Origin: Opitutia bacterium
Lineage (GTDB): Bacteria > Verrucomicrobiota > Verrucomicrobiia > Opitutales > Opitutaceae
Length of the DNA: 64,000 nt
Direction: 5' to 3'
Assembly (NCBI GenBank): GCA_016190985.1
Contig: JACPPI010000001.1
Location: 124,001-188,000 of the forward strand
A program made the translations under genes and the position numbers. Under the pieces are notes generated by a model. The model was not told the origin of the DNA. It made no database searches and saw nothing but the letters and a program-made list of their open reading frames with translations. Shown in pieces: positions 16,365-60,770 of this stretch; position 1 is the stretch's first letter, and the number at the start of each line of letters is the position of its first letter.

Positions 16365-16440
16365 GGGCTCTTAGCTCAGTTGGTAGAGCGCCTCAATGGC
16401 ATTGAGGAGGTCAGCGGTTCGAACCCGCTAGGGTCCACCA
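16365..16440 (+). tRNA. tRNA-Ala (anticodon GGC)
   Basis: A cloverleaf folds by eye. It has a 7-bp acceptor stem with the alanine identity pair G3-U70, a D arm, an anticodon stem with loop ATGGCAT (anticodon GGC), a T arm with TTCGAAC, and an encoded CCA end. Its 3' end is repeated at 17408-17428, marking it as an integration site. Confidence 0.96.
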
Positions 16441-16444
16441 CTTT
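16424..16444 (+). repeat. Left att-like direct repeat (tRNA 3' end)
   Basis: 21 bp covering the end of the T arm, the acceptor strand, CCA and four further bases. It recurs exactly at 17408-17428 and bounds the PEP-CTERM islet. Confidence 0.85.
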
Positions 16445-16450
16445 CAGCAC

Positions 16451-16476
16451 AGGCTCACCTCGCAAGGGGTGGGCCT
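16451..16476 (+). terminator. Hairpin downstream of tRNA-Ala
   Basis: 9-bp arms (AGGCTCACC and GGTGGGCCT, one wobble) followed by a short T-containing stretch. It probably ends the tRNA transcript and is carried at the left end of the inserted segment. Confidence 0.65.
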
Positions 16477-16728
16477 ATTTGTTGGCAGCTCAATGCCTGC
16501 ACCCACCGATCCGTTTTCCCGACTGCCCAGCGAAACGCGTTAAAGCAGGCAGCAAACCAATAGACTGGGACAATATATGCGCAGATAATGCTTTGCCTAC
16601 TAATGGGCATGCATTCCCGAGGCGGAATTGTCCCCAGCCATATTCTGTGATTTATGAGGAATACAGAATAACGCACGCGGCCGCCTGAGCGCCGCTCAAT
16701 CCCGGCCATATCACAGACTCCCCTCTGA
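16477..16728. other. Non-coding left half of the tRNA-bounded islet
   Basis: About 250 bp of visibly lower GC than the surroundings. I see no integrase or other convincing gene. It must hold the PEP-CTERM gene's promoter; no clear Shine-Dalgarno sequence precedes that start. Confidence 0.5.
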
Positions 16729-17292
16729 ATGAAAAAAACATCATGCCTTATTCTGGCTGCACTGGTTTCGCTGCTATTTGCAGCTTCGCCGGCGCGAGCC
16801 CAACTCGTGCTGAACTTAGATGTCACCGCCAAGAAGCTATGGTTTACAGGCACTGACACGATAACTGTAAACAATGCGGGCTCCTTCGGAAATATTTATT
16901 GGAATGCGGGTGGAGCCCTAACGGCTGCGCCTGCTTTTTCCCTAGGCACGTTAATATCATCGACGTTGACCTACGATGGGACAGTCACCCCACGGATCTG
17001 GATTTCAGGCGGTGGGAATAGTGGAATTGATATAGCGCTTGGGTTTTCGGCAACCACCGGCACCACCACTTTGGTAGGCCAAGGCCCTACTTTTTTCGTA
17101 GATTACAGCCCTGCTGGGCCTCCGTTTACCTTTTTGGAGTCGGTGAGCAGTTTTACCCTTCTCCTAGGAACCGGAGGACAAAACATCTCGGTGGTTCATT
17201 CCGCCATCCCCGAGCCCTCGACCTACGCCATGTTCGCAGGTGTAGCCGCTCTCGGCCTGGCAATCGTTCGCCGGCGCAAGCTGGCAGCCTGA
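16729..17292 (+). CDS. PEP-CTERM sorting domain protein 1
   Basis: Predicted exported surface protein of 187 residues. It has a signal peptide (MKKTSCLILAALVSLLFA, then PARAQ), a beta-rich Gly/Thr body and a C-terminal sorting tail IPEPSTYAMFAGVAALGLA ending in RRRK. The tail is the known exosortase signal, so the protein is probably processed by an exosortase elsewhere and released or anchored with exopolysaccharide. Base composition is lower in GC than in flanking genes, and direct copies of the tRNA-Ala end bound it, pointing to acquisition. The body function is unknown. Confidence 0.88.
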   Translation: MKKTSCLILAALVSLLFAASPARAQLVLNLDVTAKKLWFTGTDTITVNNAGSFGNIYWNAGGALTAAPAFSLGTLISSTLTYDGTVTPRIWISGGGNSGIDIALGFSATTGTTTLVGQGPTFFVDYSPAGPPFTFLESVSSFTLLLGTGGQNISVVHSAIPEPSTYAMFAGVAALGLAIVRRRKLAA

Positions 17293-17319
17293 CCGCCGTC
17301 CGATCACCGTCTCCCGCTC

Positions 17320-17350
17320 AGCCTCGCCCGAAACGGCGGGGCTTTTGTTT
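17320..17350 (+). terminator. Rho-independent terminator of the PEP-CTERM gene
   Basis: 9-bp stem (AGCCTCGCC/GGCGGGGCT, one wobble) followed by TTTTGTTT, 28 bp after the stop codon. Confidence 0.8.
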
Positions 17351-17407
17351 CCCCGGCAAACTACAAACGAACACACAAACAGTCGAGCCGCACGGGCGTA
17401 GGGCTGG

Positions 17408-17428
17408 CCCGCTAGGGTCCACCACTTT
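17408..17428 (+). repeat. Right att-like direct repeat (copy of tRNA-Ala 3' end)
   Basis: Exact copy of the 21 bp at 16424-16444, without the rest of the tRNA. It is probably the displaced original tRNA end, since a strong terminator follows at once. Confidence 0.85.
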
Positions 17429-29882: not shown

Positions 29883-30031
29883 GAATTATTTCGGCAAATC
29901 TCTTCGCCCGCGCCCAGCAGCTCATCCCCGGTGGCGTGAACTCGACCGTCCGGGCCTTCCGCTCGGTCGGCGGCGCGCCGTCTTTCACCTTGCGCCATTC
30001 TCCCACCCGAATAATCGTTCCGCCATGGTAA
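29879..30031 (+). pseudogene. Duplicated 5' fragment of hemL
   Basis: The 50 codons include [20 protein letters not shown] and RSVGGAPSF, almost identical to residues 7-34 of the intact hemL at 30506, then diverge and stop. The DNA match spans roughly 95 bp with scattered third-position changes. The stop overlaps the RelB-like start (ATGGTAA). It is probably the residue of a duplication connected with arrival of the TA module. Confidence 0.85.
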
Positions 30032-30249
30032 CGCTCAGACTCAACCCGGCGATGGATCGCAAATTGGCGCGCCTCGCCAAGGCCAGCGGCACGTCCAAGA
30101 CGGCCATCGCGCGTTCCGCTTTGCTCGATCGCCTGCAGGAAGAGGACGACATCCGCATCGCTGAGGAACGGCTGAAGCGCCTCGATGCCGGCAAGTCCCG
30201 CACCTACACTCTCGAGGAAGTTGAGCGTGAGCTTGGTCTGGCGCGTTGA
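30025..30249 (+). CDS. RelB/CopG-like antitoxin
   Basis: 74-residue protein whose N-terminal [18 protein letters not shown] and following helices fit a ribbon-helix-helix DNA-binding fold. The C-terminal part ([12 protein letters not shown]) resembles toxin-wrapping tails. Its 3' end overlaps the toxin start by 23 bp. Confidence 0.8.
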
Positions 30250-30499
30250 ATTGGAGGAGGACGCCAAACGTGACCTGCATCGCCTGGGTGCGGACGCGGC
30301 TCGGAAGATTGTGAGCTATTTGCGCGCAAGACTGGCCACCGCCGAAGATCCCCGCCGCTATGGACGATCACTGCGTGGCGACCTGCACGGTCTGTGGCGC
30401 TACCGGGTGGCAGATTACCGGGTGCTCGCCAAAATTGAGAAAGAACGATTGCTGGTGCTAGTGGTGCGAGTCGGCCATCGTAAGGACGTCTATGAGTGA
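30227..30499 (+). CDS. RelE/ParE-family toxin
   Basis: 90 residues from GTG 30227. The fold motif [17 protein letters not shown] and the C-terminal GLWRYRVADYRVLAKI and VRVGHRKDVYE match RelE toxins, which cleave mRNA on the ribosome. It ends 6 bp before hemL, so hemL may be read through from the TA promoter. Confidence 0.85.
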   Translation: MSLVWRVELEEDAKRDLHRLGADAARKIVSYLRARLATAEDPRRYGRSLRGDLHGLWRYRVADYRVLAKIEKERLLVLVVRVGHRKDVYE

Positions 30500-30505
30500 C
30501 CAACC

Positions 30506-31783
30506 ATGAATCAGTCTGAATCCCTCTTCGCCCGCGCCCAGCAGCTCATTCCCGGCGGCGTCAACTCCCCGGTCCGGGCCTTCCGCTCCGTCGGCGGTGC
30601 GCCGTTCTTCACCAAATCGGCCAAGGGCGCGACGCTCACCACGGCCGATGGCAAGGAGCTGATCGACTTCGTCTGCACCTGGGGCCCGGCCATTCACGGC
30701 CACAACCACCCGCGCATCAGGGCCGCCATCGCCGCCGCGCTGGAAAACGGCACGTCTTTCGGCACGCCGAATCCCTACGAGGTGCAGATGGCCGATCTGA
30801 TCGTGCAGTTCTTCCCGTCCATCCGGAAGGTCCGCATGTGCAACAGCGGCACCGAGGCGACGATGTCGGCCATCCGCTTGGCGCGCGGCTTCACGAAGCG
30901 CGACAAGATCATCAAGTTCGCCGGCTGCTACCACGGCCACAGCGACTCGCTGCTCGTCGCCGCCGGCTCGGGCGCCCTCACCCACGGCCATCCCGACAGC
31001 GCCGGTGTGCCGGCGGCATTCGCCCGTGAGACGGTCGTTCTGCCCTACAACGATATCGCCGCACTCAACGCCGGTTTCGCCGCCAATCCGGGCCAGATCG
31101 CCTGCGTCATCCTCGAGCCCTACATCGGCAACGTCGGTTTCATCAAGCCCGACGCCGGCTACCTGCAGGCGGTCCGCCAGGCCTGCACCGCCAACGGCGC
31201 CGTGCTCATCCTCGACGAGGTCATGACCGGCTTCCGCCTCGCCCGCGGCGGTGTGCAGGAAATCGAACAAATCGTCCCCGACCTCACCTGTCTCGGCAAA
31301 ATCATCGGCGGCGGCCTGCCCGTCGGCGCCTTCGGTGGCCGCACCGACATCATGGACAAACTTGCGCCGCTCGGCCCGGTCTACCAGGCCGGCACGCTCA
31401 GCGGCAACCCGCTGGCCATGGCCGCCGGCATCGCGTCGCTCCAGATGCTCGACGAGCTGAAGCCCTACGCCAAGCTCGACGCCCTCGGCCGGCAGGTTTG
31501 CGCCGCCGCCCTCGCCGCCGCCAAGGCCAAGGGCCTGCCGTTGCAGGCCCCGCAGGCGGGGTCGATGTTCAGCCTTTTCTTCACCCCGGCGCCCGTGCGC
31601 GACATGCCGACCGCGCTCGCCTCCGATGCGAGGCTCTTCGGCAGGTTCTTCCACGCCTGCCTCGCCGACGGCGTCTACCTGCCGCCCAGCGCCTACGAGT
31701 CCTGGTTCCTGAGCACGGCCCACGAGGGCGCGGCCGTGGACCGGGCTTGCGAAGTCATCGCGAAGGCGATTAAGCAATTATAG
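30506..31783 (+). CDS. hemL: Glutamate-1-semialdehyde 2,1-aminomutase
   Basis: PLP enzyme making 5-aminolevulinate in the C5 haem pathway, 425 residues. It has the N-terminal [12 protein letters not shown], the PLP-binding DEVMTGFR and the lysine motif [17 protein letters not shown]. All are intact. The copy of its first codons at 29879 and the TA module between them are unusual. Confidence 0.95.
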
Positions 31784-33615: not shown

Positions 33616-33687
33616 TGTCATTCTGAGCGGAGCGAAGAATCCAGTTTTTGCACCCACGCTGGATTCTTCGCTCCGCTCAGAATGACA
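33616..33687. repeat. 28-bp perfect inverted repeat (TTCTGAGCGGAGCGAAGAAT type)
   Basis: Arms at 33616-33643 and 33660-33687 are exact reverse complements with a 16-bp spacer. They lie between the S55 peptidase and the propeller protein. A half copy with one change in the core lies near 51864. It could end transcription but is better seen as a dispersed palindrome. Confidence 0.88.
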
Positions 33688-51860: not shown

Positions 51861-51888
51861 CACTGGATTCTTCGCTGCGCTCAGAATG
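51861..51888 (+). repeat. Half copy of the 33616-type palindrome
   Basis: CTGGATTCTTCGCTGCGCTC followed by AGAATG, one core change from the arm at 33660-33687. It stands alone without its inverse arm, at the end of the GIY-YIG remnant. Confidence 0.75.
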
Positions 51889-51942
51889 CCAGAAGCCCAT
51901 TGCCGCGCGCGCCGGGATGACCGATGAAGGCGCGTCCCCACG

Positions 51943-55650: not shown

Positions 55651-55962
55651 TCACCGCACGTGCTGGAGGCAGGCGACGAGATAGTTGTCGAGCTCGGGCA
55701 GGCTGTTGGACTGGCGCTTGTTCAACGTCATTTCTCGGAGCAGCGCAGCGACGGCCAAGAGCAGATTCCGGCAATAGGCCACATCGCGGGGGTTCGCCAG
55801 CGGGCCGGATTCCCGTGCGTCCGGCCAGACGGCCTTGCTGGCCTTGTAGCCCTCGGAGTCCTCGCGGCAGTCGGCCAGGGATCTCTGAATCAGATCATCC
55901 CTCTTGCCGCGCGCCAACCGTTCCCGGCCGATGAGCAACAGAGCAGCGGTCGCGGCGCGCAC
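55651..55962 (-). CDS. Hypothetical helical protein
   Basis: 103 residues, predicted mostly helical (LIQRSLADCREDSEGYKASK, VAYCRNLLLAVAALLREM), lower GC than neighbours. No family is recognised with confidence. It may be a fragment. Confidence 0.35.
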   Translation of the reverse strand: MRAATAALLLIGRERLARGKRDDLIQRSLADCREDSEGYKASKAVWPDARESGPLANPRDVAYCRNLLLAVAALLREMTLNKRQSNSLPELDNYLVACLQHVR

Positions 55963-56127
55963 CCGGTCGTCGTTTCATTTGACCTTCAAGGCCATGGTGG
56001 GTTGTCCGGCACTTGCTCCTGTTGGTCAAGGGAGCCGCAGCAGGGAGGTTGGCGCCGCGAAACCGGCGCCGTCATGCCAGCTATATTGCGACTTGGACTG
56101 CGCCGTGAGGACTGCCAGTTTCAAGGC

Positions 56128-56739: not shown

Positions 56740-57078
56740 GCCAGGAAACCCGGATTCGCCCGCCCCACGGCAACCAGCCTTGCCTTGTTGCTTGCCTCGC
56801 AAAAAACGGCAAATCCCAATGTCACCTATCGAGTGACATTCCCTCCGGGAACCGGCCGGTTTCCGGCGAGCAGCTTAACAAGGCAATATTAGCGCGGCCC
56901 CGTAGTGTTCCAACACACCCCGGCGCGGCCGCGCCACCCCTCTCCGGAGGGGAGCCAAACCCACGCCGCGAAAATCCCCTCCAGCCAGCGGGGTGCCCGG
57001 CTTGTCCGCCGCAGCCTTGGCGCAGGTGGCAGGGCGGAGGGTGCCGTCTGGGAAAGCCGCGGCACAACGGAGCCGTGC
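56740..57078. other. Structured non-coding stretch before PEP-CTERM cassette 2
   Basis: No gene is seen. It has a perfect AATGTCAC/GTGACATT hairpin (56818-56840), a near-perfect palindrome around CCGGTTTCCGG (56846-56867) and a CCCCTCTCCGGAGGGG hairpin near 56938. These could terminate the TPR transcript or be dispersed palindromes. Confidence 0.6.
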
Positions 57079-57126
57079 GAATGCGACACCTGCCAGGATT
57101 TTTCGTCGTGGGCGCGGAGCCGCCAG
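57079..57126 (+). repeat. Left direct repeat: copy of the cNMP-binding gene 3' end
   Basis: 48 bp matching 58314-58361 at about 44 positions, same orientation. It holds the last codons of the cNMP-binding gene but nothing more of it. Confidence 0.85.
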
Positions 57127-57331
57127 GTGCCGGCACTTCGGGACATAGCCCTTCGTGTCGTGATTTGCCTCGGGCTGCCCGGCGGTGGAGCACTGGCGCA
57201 GCCTGCGTGCGGAAAGAGCAGCCGCGCACTGTGGCGGGGCGGTCGCCCCGATGCGGTCCCTCGCGCAATAATTGCGGTGGCCGGTCACTCAACCACCGCA
57301 AGAGATGCGGAGCCAATTCCGCGAAGAGGGC

Positions 57332-57337
57332 TATAAT
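57332..57337 (+). promoter_or_regulatory. Consensus -10 element for the PEP-CTERM gene
   Basis: TATAAT ends 7 bp before the ATG, so the transcript would begin at or near the start codon (leaderless). No good -35 is seen. Confidence 0.5.
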
Positions 57338-57344
57338 CATTGCC

Positions 57345-58283
57345 ATGAAAACTATTCCCAGTGGCCTGAGGAGAATGGCCTTCATGGCGGCGCTCGTCGC
57401 CGGGGTAACCGCCTCCGCCCAGTCATCCATCCAGTTCTTCACTGTTCAAAAAATACAAGGCTTCACGCAAACGGGCGCAGGCGGCGCCAACGTGTCGGCC
57501 AATGCCTACAATCCCGGAACTGACACCTATCCCTGGAGATTCGCTGCAAACATCCAAGGGACGTCCTTGGACAACACCCACCCGGCCCCGCCGAATCATG
57601 TGGTGTCGGCCGCCGGCTCGGCGGTCACGGCGTTTGACCTGAGCTTCGCTCCGGTCTTTGGTTGGGAATACCGGCCGGGCTACAGCTCCCGGGCTGCGAT
57701 GGATGCGGACTACAACAATGGCAGCTACACCGTCACGCTGGCGAATGGCGGGGCAACGCCTTTCGCGTTGAACCTGGCCGGGACAATCTATCCCAACAAT
57801 CCGGTCGCCGCGCTGACCGGGGGCAGTTGGGCCGGTGGCGTCTATGTGCTGAATCCCGCCAATGCATGGACGATCAGCACAGGGACATTCGCCACTGGTT
57901 TCGGCTGGGATGTCTCGCGCGTTGAGCTCGCCATCGCAGGCCCGGGCGTTGACTTTCAGCAAAACATCGGCGTCGGCACGGCCAGTCCCTTTGTGCTCAC
58001 GGATACAAGCGCCAGCCTGAGCCTGGCCTCCGGCGACGTCGGTGCCCCGACCTTTCTGGCCGGCGAGACCTACAGCGTGAGCATCCGCTTTCTCACGGGC
58101 TCGGATTTTCAGGATATCGGCCTGGCCCTGGGACAAACGGCGGGCTCGGCCTATGCGGCCGCAATCTACGATTCCTATCTCTCGCTCACCATCCAGGCCG
58201 TGCCGGAACCGGCCACCACGGGGGCCTTGGCCGGACTGCTCGCTCTCGGCCTGGCGGCCTGGCGACGCCGGCGCTTGGCCTGA
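57345..58283 (+). CDS. PEP-CTERM sorting domain protein 2
   Basis: 312 residues: signal peptide (MAFMAALVAGVTASAQ), a Gly/Ala/Thr-rich beta body (GETYSVSIRFLTGSDFQDIG) and the sorting tail VPEPATTGALAGLLALGLAAWRRRR. It is expected to be exported and processed by an exosortase. Like the first PEP-CTERM gene, it lies between copies of a neighbouring gene's end. A GGCCGTG/CACGCGGCC hairpin follows at about 58291-58312. Confidence 0.9.
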   Translation: MKTIPSGLRRMAFMAALVAGVTASAQSSIQFFTVQKIQGFTQTGAGGANVSANAYNPGTDTYPWRFAANIQGTSLDNTHPAPPNHVVSAAGSAVTAFDLSFAPVFGWEYRPGYSSRAAMDADYNNGSYTVTLANGGATPFALNLAGTIYPNNPVAALTGGSWAGGVYVLNPANAWTISTGTFATGFGWDVSRVELAIAGPGVDFQQNIGVGTASPFVLTDTSASLSLASGDVGAPTFLAGETYSVSIRFLTGSDFQDIGLALGQTAGSAYAAAIYDSYLSLTIQAVPEPATTGALAGLLALGLAAWRRRRLA

Positions 58284-58311
58284 CGCCATGGGCCGTGTGT
58301 TGCCACGCGGC

Positions 58312-58767
58312 CTAATGCGACACGTGCCAGAATTTTTCGTCGAGGGCGCGGAGCCGCCGGGCGAGGTCGCGCGAGAGGTTGAGCATCACGATGCCGTATT
58401 GCATGGGCAGGTGCTGGTAGAGCCGGTGGAAATCCAGGCCCTTCAGCGTGTAGGCCGTCACCGCGTCCTCCGCCACCACACTGGCGGAACGCACGACGCT
58501 CTCCACCAGGCTCATCTCCCCGAAAAACTCGCCGGGGCCCAAGCGCGCCAGGTTCATCGGCTGCGGTCCGCCCTGGCCCTTGACCACAGCCACATGACCC
58601 GCGCTGAGGAAAAACATCCGGTCGCCCGGCTCCCCCTCCCCGATGATCACCGCGCCGGGGGCATACGACTCCTCCTTGGCCAGATTGGATAAAAACCTGA
58701 TGGCCTCGTCGTCGAGGCCGGTCATGACCGGCACGCAGTGCAGGAAATCCTCCAACGTGGTGCTCAT
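58312..58767 (-). CDS. Cyclic nucleotide-binding (CAP-like sensor) domain protein
   Basis: 151 residues forming one cNMP-binding beta-roll (GAVIIGEGEPGDRMFFLSAG, then LGPGEFFGEMSLVE, the phosphate-binding cassette region) without an HTH domain. It may regulate a partner protein directly. It follows the DUF302 gene by 16 bp. Its 3' end was duplicated during insertion of the PEP-CTERM segment. Confidence 0.85.
   Translation of the reverse strand: MSTTLEDFLHCVPVMTGLDDEAIRFLSNLAKEESYAPGAVIIGEGEPGDRMFFLSAGHVAVVKGQGGPQPMNLARLGPGEFFGEMSLVESVVRSASVVAEDAVTAYTLKGLDFHRLYQHLPMQYGIVMLNLSRDLARRLRALDEKFWHVSH
58314..58361 (+). repeat. Right direct repeat (3' end of the cNMP-binding gene)
   Basis: The intact end of the minus-strand cNMP-binding gene, corresponding to the copy at 57079-57126. 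Confidence 0.85.
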
Positions 58768-58783
58768 GGGGCGCCCCCCGTCC

Positions 58784-59182
58784 TCAACCACCGCAGGTCT
58801 CTTCCATGATGCGCACCATGGTGTCCTCGACCTCCTGCGCGGTGGCGGCGGCGCCGGGGATGTTGAACATGGTGAGCAAGGCCGTCGGCTTCATTGTGGC
58901 GAGGATCGTCCGCCCGGCCTCGGCGTAGACGGCGATCCGGCACGGCAGGGCGGTCGAGATCTCGATGTTCTGGTTGAGCACGACCTGGGCGTGGCTGGGA
59001 TTGCAAACCTCGATCACCCGGCACTCGCGGCCGAAGGGCACGCCCTTGCTTTCCATCTTTTCGCGGAGGTTGTGCACGGCCTGCACGCCGAATTTGTGCT
59101 TGGCGGCGATCTCGGACAGGCGGGTGCAGACGGTCTCGAGCGGCAGCGCCGTGGAACGGAAAATCAACAGTTCGTTGCTCAT
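58784..59182 (-). CDS. DUF302 domain protein
   Basis: 132 residues with FGVQAVHNLREKMESKGVPF, VIEVCNPSHAQVVLNQ and LPCRIAVYAEAGRT, typical of DUF302 proteins, which are of unknown role. Upstream partner of the cNMP-binding protein, suggesting a small regulatory unit. Confidence 0.85.
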   Translation of the reverse strand: MSNELLIFRSTALPLETVCTRLSEIAAKHKFGVQAVHNLREKMESKGVPFGRECRVIEVCNPSHAQVVLNQNIEISTALPCRIAVYAEAGRTILATMKPTALLTMFNIPGAAATAQEVEDTMVRIMEETCGG

Positions 59183-59276
59183 GGGAGGGGGGGTGGCCGC
59201 AAAGGCTACTCCAAAATCCGCGAATAGGAAAGCCGGGGATTGCCGGCGCCGGCCCCCGGCCCATGGCGCCAACGGC

Positions 59277-60770
59277 CTATCTCGCCAGCTCGTGGAGATA
59301 ATCGACGTAGGACGCGGCGGCGCCGTCAAAGCCGCTGACCTTCGGGTTGCTCGACTCGATGACAAAATACTCGTCCGGGGCGTGCGCTCCGCCGCCGTGG
59401 CCGAGACCGAAATGCCCGGCCGCGAGGCTCAAGGGCGGCTCGGTGAAGACAAACCCCGGATAGGATCCCGCGAGGCGCGGCCAGAGGACCGGGTCGACGC
59501 CGTTGCGCTTCAGCACGGCGACCTGCGCCTTGATGATGGCGGCCTCGGCGGAGGTGGCGGTCGGGTTGTAGCCGCCGGTGAAATTCACGTCGATGTCGCC
59601 GTAGCCGTGCTTCACGAGATGCGCCTTGAGCTTGCCCAGCACCTCCTCGGCCGTCTGGTTCGGCACGAGGCGCAGGTCGAGCTTGGCCGAGGCGCGGTGC
59701 GGCAGGATGGTCTTGCCGCCGGGGCCGGTGTAGCCGCCGTGGATGCCCTCGATGTTCACGGTCGGCTGGGAAGTGAGCCGCTCCAAGGCGGCTTGGAACG
59801 GGAGGTCGTCGATCCACTTGGTGGCGCCGGAGGCGGCCTGGTATTGGCGCGGCGTGAGCTTCCTGGCCGCGTTGGCGATCTGCACCTTCTCCTCTTCGGT
59901 CAGCGGCCGCACATTTTCGAAAATGCCGTCGATCAACGGCGTGTTGCCGTCGGGCGTGACCAGCGTGCTCAGGCCCTGCACGAGGTGCCAGAGCGGGCTG
60001 TCGACCATGGCCTTGAAGGAGGAATGCGTGTCGCGCATCGGCCCGCGGCCCCAGGCCTGGCCGTCGGAGGTCAGCTCGACCTCGATCACGCCCTTGGCGC
60101 CGAGGTTGACGGTCACGCCGCCGTCGATGCCCTGCGTGCCCATCGGCAGGATGACCCCGATGGTTTTGGCGAGCGCGGCCTGCACATGTGGCTGGTAGAC
60201 GATCTGCCGGATGTTGGGCGAACCGATCTCCTCCTCGCCCTCGGCCACCAGCACAAGGTTGACGGGCGGCTTGCGGCCGGAGGTGCGGAAGGCGTCGAGC
60301 GCGGCCAGAAACGCCGCCTGCGGGCCTTTCTGGTTCGTGGCGCCGCGACCGATGATCACTTTGCCCACACCGTCCCGGTCCACAATGCGGGCCTCCAGCG
60401 GCGGTGCCACCTTCCATTCGGTCGGATCGAATTGCTTCACATCATACATGAAGTAGATGCCGACCGTCTTGGCTGCGCCTGCATCCAGCGTCGCAAAGAC
60501 TCCCGGTTTGCCTGTCGTGTCGATCCGCTCGGTGTGCTGGAATCCGACCTCCTTCAGCAGGGCGATCAGGTGGTCCGCGCCATCGGGGAACCCGCGGTTC
60601 TCCGCCGCGACCGAGGGCCGGCGGATCCAGTCCTGCAACCGGGCGACCGCCCCGTCGTGGTTCTTGGCGATCTCGGCCTTGAGCGCCGCGATGTCCGCGT
60701 CCGCCGCCAGCATGCTGCCCGCACTCCCCACCGCCAAAGCGGTGGCCAACCCGATGGAACGTAGTTTCAT
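59277..60770 (-). CDS. M20-family metallohydrolase with altered metal ligands, exported
   Basis: 497 residues with a signal peptide (GLATALAVGSAGSMLAAD). The M20 order is clear: FMYDVKQFDP (usual HYDVQ, here Met for His), GRGATNQKGP (usual ASDDKG, here Asn for the bridging Asp), AEGEEEIGSPN, ILPHRASAKLDLR and GGGAHAPDEY. With two ligands changed, binding of two zinc ions is in doubt. It may have one metal or a changed activity. Confidence 0.88.
   Translation of the reverse strand: MKLRSIGLATALAVGSAGSMLAADADIAALKAEIAKNHDGAVARLQDWIRRPSVAAENRGFPDGADHLIALLKEVGFQHTERIDTTGKPGVFATLDAGAAKTVGIYFMYDVKQFDPTEWKVAPPLEARIVDRDGVGKVIIGRGATNQKGPQAAFLAALDAFRTSGRKPPVNLVLVAEGEEEIGSPNIRQIVYQPHVQAALAKTIGVILPMGTQGIDGGVTVNLGAKGVIEVELTSDGQAWGRGPMRDTHSSFKAMVDSPLWHLVQGLSTLVTPDGNTPLIDGIFENVRPLTEEEKVQIANAARKLTPRQYQAASGATKWIDDLPFQAALERLTSQPTVNIEGIHGGYTGPGGKTILPHRASAKLDLRLVPNQTAEEVLGKLKAHLVKHGYGDIDVNFTGGYNPTATSAEAAIIKAQVAVLKRNGVDPVLWPRLAGSYPGFVFTEPPLSLAAGHFGLGHGGGAHAPDEYFVIESSNPKVSGFDGAAASYVDYLHELAR

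Follow-up and report, generated by a model that had tools for sequence, protein, structure and literature searches.

The window analyzed here is a 64,000-nucleotide stretch (G000:C5:124001-188000) of the source genome, G000, which comprises 2.95 Mb in 34 contigs; other G numbers denote relatives from the same genus. Both PEP-CTERM genes of the window lie between copies of the end of a resident gene, as the initial annotation had proposed. The first is flanked by copies of a tRNA-Ala 3' end, and the second is flanked by copies of the 3' end of a gene for a cyclic nucleotide-binding (cNMP) domain protein (Table 1). We refer to the second PEP-CTERM gene and its flanking repeat pair (57080-58361) as cassette 2, with T1 as the left copy and T2 as the right. 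T1 and T2 form a direct repeat with 44 of 48 positions identical and a start-to-start distance of 1234 bp, which matches the identity and the 1.2-kb spacing first reported, except that the repeat starts at 57080 rather than 57079. Taken to the full stop codon, the copies agree at 45 of 50 positions, and the best 45 bp align with an E value of 1.3e-13 when the flanks of the PEP-CTERM gene are compared as 3 kb against 3 kb. When 57040-57340 was searched against the 2.95-Mb genome, T1 and T2 were the sole copies at E <= 0.001, and a dispersed-repeat reading of the pair was rejected because there are only two genomic copies.

The gene between the copies encodes a predicted surface protein with the features of PEP-CTERM proteins (a C-terminal PEP motif, a transmembrane stretch, and a basic tail), as judged by matches above the cut-off to both PF07589 (21.5 bits; cut-off, 20.7) and TIGR02595 (22.0; cut-off, 16). 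It is the sole gene recognized within the insert. Ten other genus genomes have orthologues of the cNMP gene, with identities of 55 to 93%. Other repeats also occur in the window. Just left of T1, at 56909-57037, lie two dispersed repeat families that are frequent across genus genomes and have sequences distinct from those of T1 and T2. Farther away, a TGTCATTCTGAGCG-type repeat of 30 bp is present in two inverted copies (33616-33645 and 51862-51891; 93% identity) and belongs to a kind that is also found in other genomes of the genus.

Table 1. Repeats, inserts, and target genes (window positions unless a contig is named; the last five rows lie elsewhere in G000)
Feature	Position	Strand	Remarks
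tRNA-Ala(GGC), target of cassette 1	16365-16440	+	
Left repeat of cassette 1, tRNA 3' end plus 4 bp	16424-16444	+	21/21 identical
Insert of cassette 1, 963 bp	16445-17407		GC 55%; absent from G018
PEP-CTERM gene of cassette 1, 187 aa	16729-17292	+	PF07589, 22.8 bits
Right repeat of cassette 1, displaced 3' end of the tRNA with a terminator-like hairpin after it	17408-17428	+	21/21 identical
Copy of hemL-like gene 5' end	29900-29989	+	90 bp, 89%
RelB-family antitoxin; RelE/ParE-family toxin	30025-30249; 30185-30499	+	NF048017, TIGR02385, PF05016
Intact 5' end of aminotransferase class-III gene (30506-31783)	30524-30613	+	
T1, distal and apparently decaying copy of cNMP gene 3' end	57080-57127		44/48 identical
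Insert of cassette 2, 1186 bp	57128-58313		GC 64.2%; no PF00589 match; putative boundaries, from repeat ends
PEP-CTERM gene of cassette 2, 312 aa, PEP motif near C terminus	57345-58283	+	PF07589, TIGR02595
T2, intact 3' end of cNMP gene	58314-58361		From repeat alignment and orthologue comparison
Cyclic nucleotide-binding domain gene, 151 aa, target of cassette 2	58312-58767	-	PF00027, 69.2 bits
HicA/HicB module	At aminotransferase gene 3' end		
DUF5615 gene and 68-aa ORF without family	At metallo-beta-lactamase-fold gene 3' end		
DUF4258 gene (weak match, under cut-off) and DUF2283 gene	At RuvB-like gene 3' end		
Gene for a 167-aa protein that matches no family	Between copies of a PEP-CTERM gene's terminator-like sequence		
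GIY-YIG gene	G000:C11:131023-131450		Between 20-bp copy of tRNA-Met 3' end and tRNA-Met

The repeat has sharp edges and one changed copy

Two copies of a gene end might be all that is left where ordinary tandem duplication had doubled the cNMP gene or its surroundings and erosion had then reduced the repeat to 48 bp. On the inner side, however, the best local alignment between 57128-57344 and 58362-59300 had a score that was reached by 73 of 200 shuffles, and local alignment detected no similarity to the cNMP gene or the DUF302 gene inside 57128-57344. The outer sides of the repeat gave no match either, as 179 of 200 shuffles reached the score. What speaks for a duplication is a 13-bp word from the 3' end of the DUF302 gene (58783-58795) that is found again, with the order preserved, at 57288-57300; the recurrence is within chance, and the word at 57288-57300 sits in a potential hairpin (z, -1.75). 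Against a duplication, the edge of the repeat is sharp, with 92% identity within the 48 bp and none detected outside. Because no homology was detected past the repeat, we consider plain tandem duplication very improbable, and the tandem duplication that the initial annotation had named as one possible refutation is not borne out.

T1 and T2 were also compared with the same stretch of ten cNMP orthologues, nine of which were used after a misaligned row (G003) was dropped. Against these nine, T1 agreed with the orthologue to the exclusion of T2 at 0 sites, T2 agreed with the orthologue to the exclusion of T1 at 3 to 4 sites, and T1 and T2 agreed with each other to the exclusion of the orthologue at 5 to 15 sites. 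Therefore, T1 and T2 look like sisters, of which T1 is the changed one. The four differences between them are private to T1, fall at codon positions 1, 2, 2, and 3, and are all nonsynonymous. On the strength of these alignments, T1 appears to be a young, decaying duplicate of the cNMP gene end. By the sister relation, the duplication also appears to postdate the divergence from G010, the closest relative, in which the cNMP protein is 93% identical. Alternatively, gene conversion between T1 and T2 could have produced the sister-like appearance.

Occupied and empty sites

An empty site for cassette 1 is present in G018, where the tRNA-Ala gene directly joins the right-flank hairpin and the neighboring gene of the window. 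Insertion at the 3' end of tRNA-Ala is thus a well-supported reading of cassette 1 from genome comparison. In G010 (L227 1416-3768, G010:C7), the same tRNA-Ala(GGC) has other DNA after it, about 2.35 kb in length. This DNA holds two main ORFs, which we take to be a 189-aa ORF and a Sel1-repeat-like ORF, and shows no evident integrase. The tRNA-end word used as query had no further exact match in it, so the G010 insert is not itself seen as repeat bounded.

For cassette 2, no relative was found that has both flanks and lacks the insert, either with the cNMP protein in 57 genomes and a contig database or with left-flank DNA in 20 genus genomes. A 6.9-kb contig of G010 carries a single cNMP 3' end, and neither a second copy nor a PEP-CTERM gene is seen there. 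In that genome, the end of another gene, presumably acyl-CoA-dehydrogenase-like, lies 21 bp from the cNMP 3' end, and the left flank is not orthologous to that of the window; the acyl-CoA-dehydrogenase-like gene was not found in 857 kb of G000. With 15 candidates scored in each of the 20 genus genomes, the left-flank search recovered dispersed repeats, a small number of weak, short hits, and the ORF region at about 55651-56036; the TPR gene of the left flank was not recovered in full. In G009, about 2 kb separates this ORF region from the cNMP gene, and the arrangement is different.

The same layout surrounds other cargo

Repeat pairs were counted in 857 kb (29%) of G000 that had not been selected for the layout and that included the PEP-CTERM regions. 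The census gave 195 pairs, 66 of which had at most two copies, and 47 pairs were not within one gene. By eye, 9 of those 47 pairs enclose a small module, the repeats being copies of a gene or tRNA end or of a terminator. Many of the rest resemble paralogous genes or internal repeats; possible additional examples are C14:118173-119398, C5:241139-241590, and a small number of other pairs. The nine modules carry three PEP-CTERM genes, four toxin-antitoxin-type pairs, one GIY-YIG gene, and one gene for a 167-aa protein; a Fisher test of 3/9 against 10/733 was post hoc, with modules picked by eye and the C29 gene in the denominator. We take the DUF5615 and DUF4258/DUF2283 pairs to be toxin-antitoxin-type modules, and the target of the latter pair is presumably a RuvB-like gene. 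The DUF5615 insert is also present in G010, and the other 19 genomes align only from about the gene's own end (coordinates only, from 15 or fewer scored candidates per genome).

One of the toxin-antitoxin pairs lies in the window itself, where a RelBE module is found between two copies of the 5' end of an aminotransferase class-III gene, which we take to be hemL-like. By pattern, the hemL gene start occurs twice in G000 and G007 and once in 13 genomes, with none read in 4, and the insert is common to G000 and G007. Compared with G010, the hemL copies are not sisters: the left copy alone agrees with the orthologue at 4 sites, the right copy alone agrees at 6, and the copies share 1 site. Moreover, 8 of the 10 differences between them are at third codon positions. 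An incoming foreign allele may therefore explain the hemL event, and since hemL differs from cassette 2 in this respect, one mechanism need not cover all cases.

The hemL copies raise the question of homology-assisted capture, in which incoming DNA with a gene-end copy and a PEP-CTERM gene would have recombined with the resident gene, the other end would have been joined illegitimately, and the resident end would have become the second copy. Capture suits the non-sister copies of hemL with their third-position differences, and it suits the RuvB-like case, in which by eye both copies encode the same terminal amino acids with many synonymous changes. The cassette 2 copies, however, are sisters with all differences in T1, so a capture donor would have to have been almost the same strain, and we regard capture as quite unlikely there.

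Because the same layout surrounds toxin-antitoxin genes in G000, the cases point to general gain of small modules and not to a special family of surface-protein cassettes. From the arrangement of repeats and genes, insertion at gene ends appears to serve as a general means of acquiring such modules.

PEP-CTERM genes across the genus

The initial annotation had gone further and suggested a class of integrase-less PEP-CTERM mini-cassettes that could account for the large PEP-CTERM families of the phylum. A motif pattern recognized 114 PEP-CTERM ORFs in 101 regions, in 15 of 17 genomes (a Pfam search gave 125 PEP-CTERM places as a table sum), and none of the 114 came from G010 or G019, though regions of both were covered. 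Four ORFs with a flank of less than 200 bp were dropped, which left a tested set of 110 in 14 genomes; the C29 PEP-CTERM gene, cut by a contig end, was dropped from the flank test. The test counted direct repeats with a score of at least 20 within 1.5 kb on each side, and with these limits old, decayed copies would escape.

Raw flanking repeats were found around 13 of the 110 PEP-CTERM ORFs and 30 of 934 other ORFs, an excess (P = 0.0002) that includes paralogue arrays and dispersed repeats. After classification by inspection, gene-end copies surrounded 4 of the 110, 3 of them in G000: cassettes 1 and 2 of the window, L003, and L224. The other raw matches were paralogue arrays, internal repeats, or segmental duplications (L174, L201 [two], L166, L173, and L214) or were dispersed, noncoding, or unclear (L198, L153, and L223). 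In L198 (147-324 and 1177-1354; G011:C61), repeats of 178 bp with 80% identity, apparently noncoding, lie on either side of the PEP-CTERM gene. Within G000, 3 of 8 tested PEP-CTERM genes had the gene-end layout, against 2 of 112 control ORFs at the threshold.

Besides those in the window, the gene-end cases involve gene starts. The PEP-CTERM gene on C28 of G000 lies between the 5' end of its neighbor and a 65-bp duplicate of that end (80% identity). In the counterpart from G003, the distance from the upstream flank to the gene start is 95 bp, compared with 1519 bp in G000 (coordinates only), and G003 probably represents the empty site for the C28 insert. A PEP-CTERM gene of G013 has a 41-bp copy (90%) of a gene 5' end.

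Could a dedicated PEP-CTERM cassette class have built the families of the phylum? The share of G000 genes with the layout (3/8) and the raw excess are what one would cite for it. Against it, only 4 of the 110 genes in the genus are flanked by copies of a neighboring gene's end, toxin-antitoxin-type cargo is at least as common in the repeat-pair census (four versus three), and the cassettes share no ends. We consider such a class extremely improbable. What holds of the original proposal is that the layout occurs, with three G000 genes and an empty site for cassette 1; what does not hold is its restriction to PEP-CTERM genes. The scan of PEP-CTERM genes for gene-end repeats also went against the idea, as most of the 110 had none. 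More generally, gene-end repeats around one gene family need not mean a family-specific cassette.

How the segment may have entered

For cassette 2 we favor, at a probability of roughly 0.55, insertion with a long target duplication, in which a PEP-CTERM segment of about 1.19 kb entered at the cNMP gene's 3' end. The segment, with its one PEP-CTERM gene, would have entered the end of the cNMP-binding-protein gene in a single step that also duplicated the terminal 48 bp of the gene (50 bp at most); we infer both the single step and the manner of duplication. The right copy would keep the end of the cNMP gene intact, and the left copy would be free to decay. As the target is duplicated, an insertion within the last few dozen bases spares one complete gene. 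The bias of inserts toward gene ends may thus reflect survivorship, because a duplication over a gene end leaves one intact gene.

The targets are long and variable, measuring 20 to 93 bp in the nine modules that were singled out by eye among the 47 pairs, and they have no common word beyond chance. No shared recombination core, for which the initial annotation had proposed comparing the cassette ends, was found: the longest word common to the targets of cassettes 1 and 2 is 4 bp, which 200 of 200 shuffles reached, and inverted words in common between insert ends are at most 6 bp, a count without shuffle control. Fill-in with Ku-dependent end joining was considered and rejected, as Ku (PF02735) was not found in G000 and the pathway is therefore not an evident route; Ku is present in 2 of 21 genus genomes.

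Tyrosine recombinases were sought with PF00589, which has seven matches in G000, six of them above the cut-off. All lie outside cassettes 1 and 2, in keeping with the earlier statement that neither cassette contains a recombinase, and none is linked to the cassette ends. An integron integrase (TIGR02249) is encoded outside the window at G000:C5:241591-242907. About 34 kb past it, at C5:276730-282500, a second tyrosine recombinase match lies beside small, mostly plus-strand ORFs separated by repeats that are 90 to 100% alike, and this run of ORFs is perhaps an integron cassette array.

Attachment sites are classically located at the 3' ends of genes and tRNAs, and the cassettes might instead be integrase-less, site-specific elements like CIMEs, with the repeats as attL and attR, the gene 3' end as attachment site, and the recombinase elsewhere or lost. 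Cassette 1 at tRNA-Ala and the GIY-YIG insert at tRNA-Met fit such elements well. The different DNA at the same tRNA-Ala in G010, with no evident integrase, also favors them, as do the PF00589 matches of G000, one of which is the integron integrase. However, the targets lack a core (the 4-bp word of cassettes 1 and 2 is what chance gives) and vary in length, those of hemL and C28 are gene 5' ends, the G010 DNA lacks a second exact tRNA-end copy, and the PEP-CTERM gene is the sole one recognized in the cassette 2 insert. For cassette 2, we view a site-specific element as possible, if on the unlikely side.

We speculate beyond insertion with target duplication at this one locus that the genus may have an undescribed, integrase-free route by which modules of one or two genes (toxin-antitoxin pairs, PEP-CTERM surface proteins, or a GIY-YIG gene), as inserts of 0.3 to 1.4 kb, enter gene and tRNA ends with duplications of 20 to 93 bp and no fixed core, though the idea is a doubtful one. 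If it is true, surface-protein genes spread as addiction modules do. If several unrelated modules insert in this way in one genome, their insertion products form a natural set from which it could be worked out how long-target-duplication insertion proceeds.

Comparison with known systems

Toxin-antitoxin cargo is common in integron gene cassettes. Like such cassettes, the modules described here are small and consist of one or two genes, and G000 encodes an integron integrase. Unlike them, the modules are scattered at gene ends, have target duplications of 20 to 93 bp, and form no array at these places. A literature search that combined PEP-CTERM with "target duplication" found no paper in the library searched, and none on such cassettes was apparent from titles and the openings of abstracts.

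A second comparison is with elements that depend on others for integration. The CIME (cis-mobilizable element) is defined in a passage of PMC5704250, and integrase-less islands at ssrA in Dehalococcoides are described in part of PMC3146451. As far as those passages characterize them, such elements are bounded by copies of tRNA or gene 3' ends and lack integration genes, a description that cassette 1 fits well. The cassette 2 insert likewise holds no integration or transfer genes, as judged by the PF00589 profile and by the one gene recognized in it. Unlike CIMEs, however, the cassettes measure about 1 kb and carry one gene, the targets are several, unrelated, and include gene 5' ends, and no common core or partner integrase was found.

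The closest parallel to our favored reading comes from restriction-modification systems. According to passages of PMC3874152 and PMC3031569 that cite Nobusato 2000 and Furuta 2010, these systems can insert with long, variable target duplications, the length of which is put "in the order of 100 bp" in PMC3874152; the excerpt of PMC2654758 is a further source that cites Nobusato et al. 2000 and Furuta et al. 2010 on restriction-modification insertions. In the parts of all three articles that bear on the matter, the insertions are inferred from genome comparison. As in those accounts, a module without a linked mobile element is flanked here by long, variable, direct copies of the target. Both copies appear to derive from the same resident sequence at cassette 2, as they do in insertion with long target duplication, and at hemL they do not appear to. 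Unlike the restriction-modification insertions, the cases here carry PEP-CTERM genes or toxin-antitoxin pairs, their targets are 20 to 93 bp, their host is a member of the Verrucomicrobiota, and no clean empty site was found for cassette 2. As the cargo is not a restriction-modification system, we claim a likeness to long-target-duplication insertion and not membership, and cargo is no mechanistic requirement. If the reading is true, the cargo of long-target-duplication insertion extends beyond restriction-modification genes.
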